Shown here: piece after piece, positions 3,818 through 30,101 of the stretch | How positions within the stretch are numbered: the stretch's first letter is position 1 | Layout of the letters: every line of letters begins with the position of its first letter | DNA from: Candidatus Parvarchaeota archaeon | Lineage (GTDB): Archaea > Nanobdellota > Nanobdellia > JAFCGN01 > DAOVEB01 | Length of the DNA: 32,972 nucleotides | Direction of reading: 5' to 3' | Assembly: GCA_030669205.1 (NCBI GenBank) | Contig: DAOVEB010000006.1 | Location: 1-32,972 of the forward strand | Position numbers and translations under genes: made by a program | The notes under the pieces: generated by a model | What the model was told of the DNA's origin: nothing | Databases searched by the model: none | What the model saw: the letters and a program-made list of their open reading frames with translations, nothing else

Positions 3818-4263
3818 GAATTCTGATATGTGGTGTTGGCGGCCAGGGTGTTGTCCTGCTCACACGCATGCTCTGTGAGACAGCTATCCGCTCCGGCAAG
3901 CGCTGTCTCTCGTCCGAGACGCATAGGATGTCGCGTATGCTCGGCTCAGTTAACACAACTGTGAAGATAGGGGACTACCATTCGCCTGAGGTGGACGATG
4001 TCGACTTGCTTGTTGGCCTTGACCCAGGTGAGACGCGCAACTACCTCCATCTCGCAAAGGGTGAAATTTTGACCTTCGGCAGGGTTCCTGGAGCCAAAAC
4101 ACTCAGATGTGACCTATTATCACCAAACATCTTCGTGCTCGGCGTCCTTTGCAGGACACTATTCCTTCCCCCTGAAACTGCAAGGCAGACCATAAGGGAG
4201 TTTGGCAGAAGGGTCGATGATAACATCAAGTCATTTGACGCGGGTTATGTCTATGAACCGTGA
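3814..4263 (+). CDS. iorB: Indolepyruvate:ferredoxin oxidoreductase, beta subunit
   Basis: 149 residues starting MRILICGVGGQGVV, the glycine-rich opening of the gamma-type 2-oxoacid oxidoreductase domain. It continues with SSETHRMSRMLGSVNTTVKIG and ends ...IKSFDAGYVYEP, the usual IorB C-terminus. Partner of IorA in the alpha2beta2 enzyme. The ATG overlaps the iorA TGA (ATGA) and has AGGTG about 8 nt upstream, so translation is coupled. It is about 40-60 residues shorter than common IorB proteins, the loss being in the middle. A longer in-frame extension upstream runs over iorA and is not believed. Confidence 0.88.
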   Translation: MRILICGVGGQGVVLLTRMLCETAIRSGKRCLSSETHRMSRMLGSVNTTVKIGDYHSPEVDDVDLLVGLDPGETRNYLHLAKGEILTFGRVPGAKTLRCDLLSPNIFVLGVLCRTLFLPPETARQTIREFGRRVDDNIKSFDAGYVYEP

Positions 4264-21073: not shown

Positions 21074-21088
21074 TTGTTGAAATGATAA

Positions 21089-21097
21089 ATATTTAAT
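21089..21097 (+). promoter_or_regulatory. TATA-like box for tyrS
   Basis: ATATTTAAT lies about 27-29 nt before ATG 21122, consistent with a leaderless tyrS transcript. Confidence 0.5.
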
Positions 21098-21121
21098 AGG
21101 TGCAACTCATGGTTTAGAACC

Positions 21122-28885: not shown

Positions 28886-29875
28886 TTGAAATGGAAGTTG
28901 ATTGTCGGAACAGAAGCGTTGGATTTCATTAGGTACCGCCACCTTTCTATCAGGACCGAGCGTTCGAGGGCAGTTCTCAAGGTCCAGAGCGAAATAATGT
29001 CCTCAATTAGGAGATTTTTCGGGAAACAGAAATTTACCGAAGTGAAACCAGCAATAATTGGACCGGCAACAGACCCAGACGTCCGCGGAGCAGAAGCAGC
29101 GTCAATAGATTTCTACGGCGTGAAATACTTACTGACAACCAGCATGATACTCTACAAGCAGATGCTCATCTCCTCGCTCGATAAAATTTACATTTTCTCT
29201 CCGTGTATACGCCTTGAGAAGAAGAGAACTGACAGGCACTTGGCAGAGTTCCTGCAGGTAGATGTTGAGGCGGCACACCGTTCTTGTGATGAGATCATGA
29301 AGGTGGCAGAGAGTCTCTTGGCAGTTGCGGTAAGTGATGCACTCAAACACTGTAGAGAGGAACTTCAACTGCTTGGTAGAAAACTGAAGGTACCTAAGAC
29401 TCCATTCAAAAAATTGACGTTTAAGGAAGCAATTAAGGTCGCAATGGACCTTGGCTTTGACTTCGACCATACATCAGAGCTGCCGTTTGAAGCAGAGAAG
29501 GCTGTTTCCATGCAGTTCAAGAGACCTTTTTTCATAGTGGGTTATCCTCTTGACTCCAGGGGCTTTTACTACAAAGAGAACCATGAGAAACCAGGAGAAC
29601 TCATAGACTTTGACCTTATATTCCCACAGGGTTTTGGCGAGGCTGTATCTGGGGGTGAGAGGGAGCATAAACATGCAATAGTGATGAGGAAGTTCAAAGA
29701 TAGGCGCATGGACCCAGGCAGATACAAATGGTACTTCGACATGCTTAAGATAGGAATCCCACCGTCAGCAGGCTTTGGCATAGGATTGGAAAGGTTAACC
29801 AGATACATCTGCGGTCTGGAAACCATATGGGAGGCCACGCCCTTTCCAAAGGTACCAGGAGTCCACTCACCCTAA
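28886..29875 (+). CDS. Archaeal asparagine synthetase related to AspRS/AsnRS
   Basis: 329 residues containing only the class II synthetase catalytic core, with no anticodon-binding domain. Motif 2 is FSPCIRLEKKRTDRHLAEFLQVDVE and motif 3 is GFGIGLERLTRYICG, with YLLTTSMILYKQMLISSLDK of the AsxRS pocket. Matches the Pyrococcus-type AS-AR that makes asparagine from aspartate, ammonia and ATP. Start is odd: no ATG is in frame near the N-terminus. TTG 28886 is used here, while an ATG at 28891 is out of frame and gives only 13 codons. The divergent Lrp/AsnC gene suggests amino-acid control. Confidence 0.85.
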   Translation: MKWKLIVGTEALDFIRYRHLSIRTERSRAVLKVQSEIMSSIRRFFGKQKFTEVKPAIIGPATDPDVRGAEAASIDFYGVKYLLTTSMILYKQMLISSLDKIYIFSPCIRLEKKRTDRHLAEFLQVDVEAAHRSCDEIMKVAESLLAVAVSDALKHCREELQLLGRKLKVPKTPFKKLTFKEAIKVAMDLGFDFDHTSELPFEAEKAVSMQFKRPFFIVGYPLDSRGFYYKENHEKPGELIDFDLIFPQGFGEAVSGGEREHKHAIVMRKFKDRRMDPGRYKWYFDMLKIGIPPSAGFGIGLERLTRYICGLETIWEATPFPKVPGVHSP

Positions 29876-29910: not shown

Positions 29911-30101
29911 GGGGCTGTAGTTTAGGAGCCTTTTGCTCCCGCTGGTTGTAAAACCCTCAGGGAAACTGGCTGAACAATCCGGCAGAATATCGGGCTCCAG
30001 AGACATTTGGAGCGATGAGCGAAAGCGATGACATGAAATCGGGTTTGAAGCTCGTGCTTGAGAGAAACCCGCAGACCCCGGTTCAAATCCGGGCAGCCCC
30101 A
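29911..30101 (+). tRNA. tRNA-Trp(CCA) with an anticodon-loop intron and a D-loop insertion
   Basis: Acceptor GGGGCTG (29911-29917) pairs with CAGCCCC (30094-30100); A73 is 30101. T-arm CCCGG-TTCAAAT-CCGGG spans 30077-30093. D-stem GTTT (29920-29923) pairs with GAAT (29983-29986 area, two wobbles). Anticodon arm TCGGG-CTCCAG ends at 30000 with anticodon CCA at 29997-29999. A66-nt intron 30001-30066 sits at the canonical 37/38 site, and exon 3 resumes at 30067. A second insertion of about 53 nt (29926-29978) must be removed from the D-loop. The mature tRNA would be 72 nt with one mismatch (27-43). An alternative Phe(GAA) reading is discussed under rejected items. Confidence 0.75.

Follow-up and report, generated by a model that had tools for sequence, protein, structure and literature searches.

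Positions 29911-30101 of the window, the whole 32,972-nt stretch of DNA that was analysed, carry the two ends of a tRNA gene set 191 nt apart, which raises the question of what separates them and whether a functional tRNA can be made from this locus. The window constitutes contig C62 of an archaeal genome (911 kb in 68 contigs) that is 87.6% complete. A preliminary description of the locus proposed that a tRNA-Trp(CCA) gene is interrupted by two inserts, one in the D-loop and one at the canonical 37/38 position. This proposal is borne out by the cloverleaf-compatible tRNA, with the Trp(CCA) anticodon loop CTCCAGA, that results when both inserts are removed. Judging from sequence, we consider it highly probable (roughly 0.9) that the locus represents a functional tRNA-Trp(CCA) gene with two protein-spliced introns of the archaeal type.

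Anatomy of the interrupted tRNA-Trp gene

The acceptor stem (GGGGCTG/CAGCCCC) is formed by seven of seven Watson-Crick pairs between exon 1 and positions 30094-30100 and is followed by A73, and the T-arm (CCCGG TTCAAAT CCGGG) pairs perfectly, both as previously described. The D-stem strand of exon 1, GTTT, pairs with GAAT at tRNA positions 22-25. In the mature tRNA all arms are formed, with a single mismatch (U27.C43) in the terminal pair of the anticodon stem. The boundaries originally given for the 37/38 insert (30001-30066) stand, as does the 5' boundary of the D-loop insert, whereas the 3' boundary of the latter, first placed at about 29978, lies one base earlier (Table 1). The revised boundaries are those that fit the splice motif and match both intronless and intron-bearing paralogues, and moving the 3' end by one base corrects the length of the mature tRNA from 72 to 73 nt. 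In most of ten other tRNA genes compared from the same genome, T/A elements occur at an upstream distance comparable to that of the TATA-like element of this gene. The existence of another tRNA-Trp gene, a matter raised in the preliminary description, was evaluated by using an Rfam model, a T-arm pattern and a covariance model, and none was found in the 87.6% complete genome.

Table 1. Coordinates of the tRNA-Trp(CCA) gene and of its predicted splicing elements within the window
Feature	Position	Strand	Basis or remark
TATA-like promoter element TTTAAAA	29880..29886	+	Sequence; about 25-31 nt 5' of the tRNA
Exon 1: acceptor 5' strand GGGGCTG, T8 A9, D-stem GTTT (10-13), A14 G15	29911..29925	+	
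Exon half of central 4-bp helix H, GTTT	29920..29923	+	Pairs with GAAC at 29972-29975
Predicted D-loop intron, 52 nt, position 15/16	29926..29977	+	Leave-out covariance model, splice-motif geometry, common core
5' strand of helix h', AGCC	29927..29930	+	Four contiguous Watson-Crick pairs with GGCT at 29968-29971; bounds the 5' bulge AG^G
16-nt core AAAACCCTCAGGGAAA of the common intron family	29950..29965	+	Five genome copies, all in tRNA introns
Intron half of helix H, GAAC	29972..29975	+	Followed by the 3' bulge AA^T
Exon 2: D-loop remainder TCCGGCA, D-stem GAAT, A26, anticodon stem TCGGG, CTCCAG (32-37, anticodon CCA)	29978..30000	+	
Intron at 37/38, 66 nt, box C/D-like	30001..30066	+	
Exon 3: A38, CCCGC, variable loop, T-arm, acceptor 3' strand, A73	30067..30101	+	

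The gene directly upstream of the tRNA (28886-29875) encodes an AsnA/AsnRS-like protein. Its archaeal matches exhibit 38-59% identity (Bathyarchaeota, Asgard and others), where the closest found is from Lokiarchaeota (59%) and most others are from Bathyarchaeota. This gene is possibly shared horizontally.

The insert at 37/38 looks ordinary. In known archaeal tRNA-Trp genes, an intron of about 65 nt harbours a C/D RNA by which methylation is directed to C34 and U39 (PMC4090602), and the 66-nt intron of the host resembles such introns in position, size, antisense elements and C/D-like boxes, with no essential difference. Its layout is TTTGGAGCGATGA ... GCGATGA, with CGGGTTT complementary to AAACCCG around position 38-42, TGGAG antisense to the anticodon-region sequence CTCCA, and two GATGA boxes. 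The pattern GGCTCCAN{3,24}TGGAGCG is kept in 52 of the 280 genomes examined from the same class. Position 39 of the host tRNA is a C, and the intron probably guides 2'-O-methylation at C34 and at position 39. It would be removed in the same manner as the D-loop intron.

Proposed splice motif of the D-loop intron

The D-loop junctions had been singled out as a place to look for a bulge-helix-bulge motif, and one can be drawn in a relaxed form (HBh'/hBH) that comprises the 4-bp helix H, a 3-nt 5' bulge and the 4-bp helix h', with the exon-side helix absent. The complementarities behind the small hairpins originally noted within this insert do exist, but the structure that matters is the AGCC/GGCT helix beside the 4-bp GTTT/GAAC helix.

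Among the ten D-loop introns first compared, all can pair D-stem positions 10-13 (GTCT, or GTTT in Trp) with the sequence RRAC, which lies 6 to 3 bases from the 3' end of the intron. Their 5' site has a 3-nt bulge, AG^N, after which most of them form an intron helix, and the 3' site consists of two intron bases and one exon base without an exon-side helix. When introns of relatives are included, helix H is paired in 100% of cells over 18 D-loop introns, compared with 28-52% when its strands are slid by 1-3 columns. Only the Trp intron among these 18 carries a change on both sides of the helix (U-A replacing C-G), and its GUUU/GAAC pairing is judged to be compensated because the other introns pair GUCU with GGAC; this compensatory change rests on one sequence changed on both sides (shuffle control, 32/500). 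An independent D-loop intron of 19 nt interrupts the Trp gene of a distant relative (G233), and its GTAT/GTAC pairing represents a third version of helix H, although its row was misaligned by MAFFT and its changed pair was left out of the 18-intron count.

These helix comparisons place the junctions at 29925/29926 and 29977/29978. If the junctions are fixed and the insert is shuffled, helix H plus at least 4 bp of h' arises in 0.11% of cases. Free minimum-free-energy folding of the whole Trp pre-tRNA does not yield the splice motif as the best structure, and thus the motif rests on comparison and not on energy.

We propose that, in the pre-tRNA, the GAAC sequence of the intron displaces the 3' strand of the D-stem and pairs with GUUU(10-13). 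In this conformation, the AGCC/GGCU helix would close a 3-nt bulge made up of A14-G15^G, and the 3' site, AA^U, would lack an exon-side helix, giving a relaxed HBh' or bulge-helix-loop motif. Both sites would be cut by the splicing endonuclease EndA, and the exons would be joined, presumably by RtcB, to produce a 73-nt tRNA in which the D-stem is re-formed.

A recurring intron family among tRNA genes

A covariance model (R1) was constructed from nine other D-loop introns of the host genome with the Trp intron left out. Applied to the window, R1 returns a single match at 29918-29980 (21.5 bits; E = 0.0011, E-values being rough). The whole-genome search returns ten places, representing the nine training introns and a new Pro-GGG gene; the Trp intron was not listed in that search, presumably lost in the fast first pass, and is found by direct search of the window. 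All five copies of the 16-nt core of Table 1 within the 911 kb lie in tRNA introns, namely that of the Trp D-loop, another in the D-arm of a Leu gene, and those in the anticodon loops of three tRNAs; a reversed control contains no copy. Of the ten genomic copies of a second core, AAAGC..GACC..AAA, eight fall within tRNA introns, and the other two lie immediately 3' of the Ala-GGC and Gln-TTG genes, which are intact. The two cores are built alike, with a U-run, an apical part, an A-run, a short linker and a further A-run in that order. The leave-out match, the scarcity of the motif among shuffled inserts and the restriction of the core to tRNA introns together exceed chance and thus indicate that the D-loop insert is real. 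The insert is therefore classified as a predicted intron. At the level of sequence, these comparisons establish the anatomy of the gene, one intron family that recurs at 15/16 and 37/38, and a conserved 4-bp helix, in a genome with a single EndA gene.

To place this intron among the other tRNA genes of the genome, tRNAs were collected with the Rfam model, the T-arm pattern and the covariance model, a procedure that a tRNA with a T-arm intron could escape. The tRNA family search returned 31 genes, several without a 5' half. Upstream reading combined with the T-arm pattern reveals that the halves of those genes are parted by inserts right after GTCTAG, which corresponds to the end of position 15. 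Introns at 15/16 are present in the genes for Trp, Pro (TGG, CGG and GGG), Val (TAC, CAC and GAC), Glu (TTC and CTC), Gly-CCC and Ala-TGC, and thus in at least ten genes besides Trp, several of them apparently the sole copies of essential isoacceptors. Other D-arm inserts occur in Leu (L086) and Met (L028) genes. In total, 25 of the 39 detected tRNA genes are interrupted, by 29 introns (13 in the D-arm and 16 in the anticodon loop), and four genes carry two introns, as Trp does. This amounts to about 0.74 introns per tRNA gene; the corresponding values are 0.84 for Thermoproteales and 0.21 over archaea (PMC8450103).

Several tRNA loci of this genome exhibit other peculiarities. Intron-like cores of the form CTTTTAG-AAAAAGCTTGACCAAAA lie directly 3' of the intact tRNA-Ala(GGC) and tRNA-Gln(TTG) genes, at L010 (G000:C16 ~4114-4128) and L009 (G000:C58 ~21086-21100). 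At L007 (G000:C27), a second copy of the final 15 nt of tRNA-Gln(CTG), ATCCTGGCGGGGCTA, lies about 48 nt downstream, beyond an intervening intron-like hairpin, and the repeat could be an att-like scar or an insertion footprint. At L082 (G000:C9 ~1349), the 3' part of a Glu-type tRNA stands alone with no 5' half nearby; it might be a partial duplicate, an att site or a split-tRNA half.

Since the D-loop model matches only 8 of 280 genomes of the class and none of the nearest order-mates (filters lose weak matches in both cases), the spread of D-loop introns is patchy, a distribution that suggests gain. The D-loop intron was probably gained in the host lineage as a small intron family spread among tRNA genes. 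Readable Trp genes of relatives retain the 37/38 intron, and in most the D-arm is uninterrupted (30-31-nt D-arm part). In family f9 of the class, introns with the second type of core reside in the D-loop, at 37/38 and in the T-loop of Trp. Trp genes with T-loop inserts in addition to the 37/38 intron were also observed in class relatives (L206, L208, L209, L218, L219, L220, L226 and L234). A loose Trp pattern search in the order-mates G001 and G002 produced noise, and its one plausible match falls in 23S-like rRNA sequence.

The D-loop insert might be a true intron whose family, instead of spreading passively, behaves as a mobile element with its own function, for instance as a structured RNA released by excision. 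Such an element would explain why neither core motif was found outside tRNA introns, apart from two copies directly 3' of intact tRNA genes, and why one family occupies the D-loop, 37/38 and T-loop sites. We nevertheless regard this as unlikely, given that the family has no open reading frame and that no copies were found away from tRNA genes. Far less probable still is a decayed or recently disrupted tRNA-Trp pseudogene from which the D-loop insert is not removed. A retained insert would destroy the D-loop, and the mismatch at 27-43 and the 3' splice site without an exon-side helix agree with decay, yet the gene is the sole tRNA-Trp found in the genome, the same class of insert is present in at least ten other tRNA genes, pairing is intact elsewhere, and the splice helix is compensated. 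Default ARAGORN and an Rfam scan call no tRNA in the window, and the tRNA-Gly(CCC) with one 116-nt anticodon-loop intron that the intron mode of ARAGORN proposes for 29911-30101 (low score of 28) is scarcely credible and was rejected, as its anticodon stem is weak and mostly G-U, a separate well-formed Gly-CCC gene is present (L081), and it overlooks both the class-conserved, Trp-specific 37/38 intron and the D-loop intron family. Self-splicing group I or group II introns were likewise dismissed, with no Rfam match in the window and an insert, at 52 nt, that is too short.

The preferred reading, a functional gene with two protein-spliced introns, has to accommodate the U27.C43 mismatch, the absence of the canonical exon-side helix, and an EndA type that has been reported for canonical motifs only (PMC4033280, PMC6379350).

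Splicing endonuclease and known intron systems

The host genome contains a single PF01974 gene (C55:9616-9876; E = 9.5e-29), and its EndA is 176 aa long. The protein aligns to M. jannaschii EndA with no gap in the loop region and with the catalytic Y/H/K region aligned, and it is also similar to the Nanoarchaeum enzyme. Together with the size of the genome, this likeness of EndA to both enzymes tentatively places the host lineage as DPANN-like. Sulfolobus tokodaii EndA has about 10 extra residues where the host protein has no insertion, and we infer from its position that this stretch is the CSL. By alignment of this region with the S. tokodaii protein, a CSL/ASL insertion near the active site is absent from host EndA. 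Neither a beta subunit nor a tri-unit EndA was found in the host genome, where a second EndA gene could have been missed because the assembly is 87.6% complete. All five relatives with D-loop introns that reach at least 90% completeness have one EndA gene apiece.

Alpha-4 and alpha-2 enzymes are reported to cut only canonical motifs, and CSL/ASL-type enzymes accompany diversified introns (PMC4033280, PMC6379350, PMC12397907). Either EndA of the host type tolerates more motifs than is assumed, or it has a partner that the assemblies lack or that has diverged beyond recognition. We tentatively advance, at somewhat below even odds, the proposal that the alpha-only, loop-less, M. jannaschii-type EndA of this class removes relaxed bulge-helix-bulge introns from the D-loops and T-loops of essential tRNAs, and would thus have broad specificity without a beta subunit or CSL/ASL, while a small intron family with a fixed U-run/A-run/A-run core spreads only among tRNA genes at several sites. 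Small genomes of the same class that belong to family f7 (G007, G036, G044 and G052) have two EndA genes side by side, which may constitute an alpha/beta pair.

Noncanonical archaeal tRNA introns are a known kind, and the host introns agree with it in leaving a normal tRNA upon removal, in their relaxed motif outside 37/38, and in the presence of an EndA gene. Thermoproteales (Pyrobaculum, Thermofilum) likewise have introns away from 37/38, including in the D-arm and several per gene, and closely similar introns recur among their tRNAs and at more than one site (PMC4090602, PMC3218864). However, their EndA is heterotetrameric, whereas the host, from a different lineage, has a single EndA without the Crenarchaea-specific loop. 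The host introns also differ in their U-run/A-run architecture and in residing mostly at 15/16, which is absent from the positions given in the review text. Most tRNA genes of the Asgard Atabeyarchaeia and Freyarchaeia are interrupted at noncanonical positions and by multiple introns (PMC11291895), although these archaea belong to another phylum and the likeness covers intron load and positions. ARMAN-1 and ARMAN-2 are, like the host, ultrasmall archaea with noncanonical and multiple introns (PMC4033280), but ARMAN-2 uses a 395-aa tri-unit epsilon-2 EndA with an ASL loop (PMC4033280), in contrast to the 176-aa host enzyme, which has no insertion at the Sulfolobus loop site. These reports agree with the original view that D-loop introns have been described chiefly in Thermoproteales-type Crenarchaeota, with a few odd lineages besides (PMC4090602, PMC3218864, PMC11291895). 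We found no dedicated report of D-loop introns in DPANN archaea in the open literature, which is weak evidence. What is notable here is the scale, the lineage and the enzyme mismatch.

Common tRNA finders overlook genes of this type or assign them the wrong identity, as exemplified here by ARAGORN and Rfam (no call, or Gly). The intron family offers a small, self-contained example of introns gained specifically by tRNA genes in a lineage other than Crenarchaeota. The accepted picture ties noncanonical tRNA introns to a broad-specificity EndA that has either a beta subunit or the CSL/ASL loop, and the many D-loop introns that occur alongside a single loop-less EndA in the host and in several relatives of its class make this tie directly testable.
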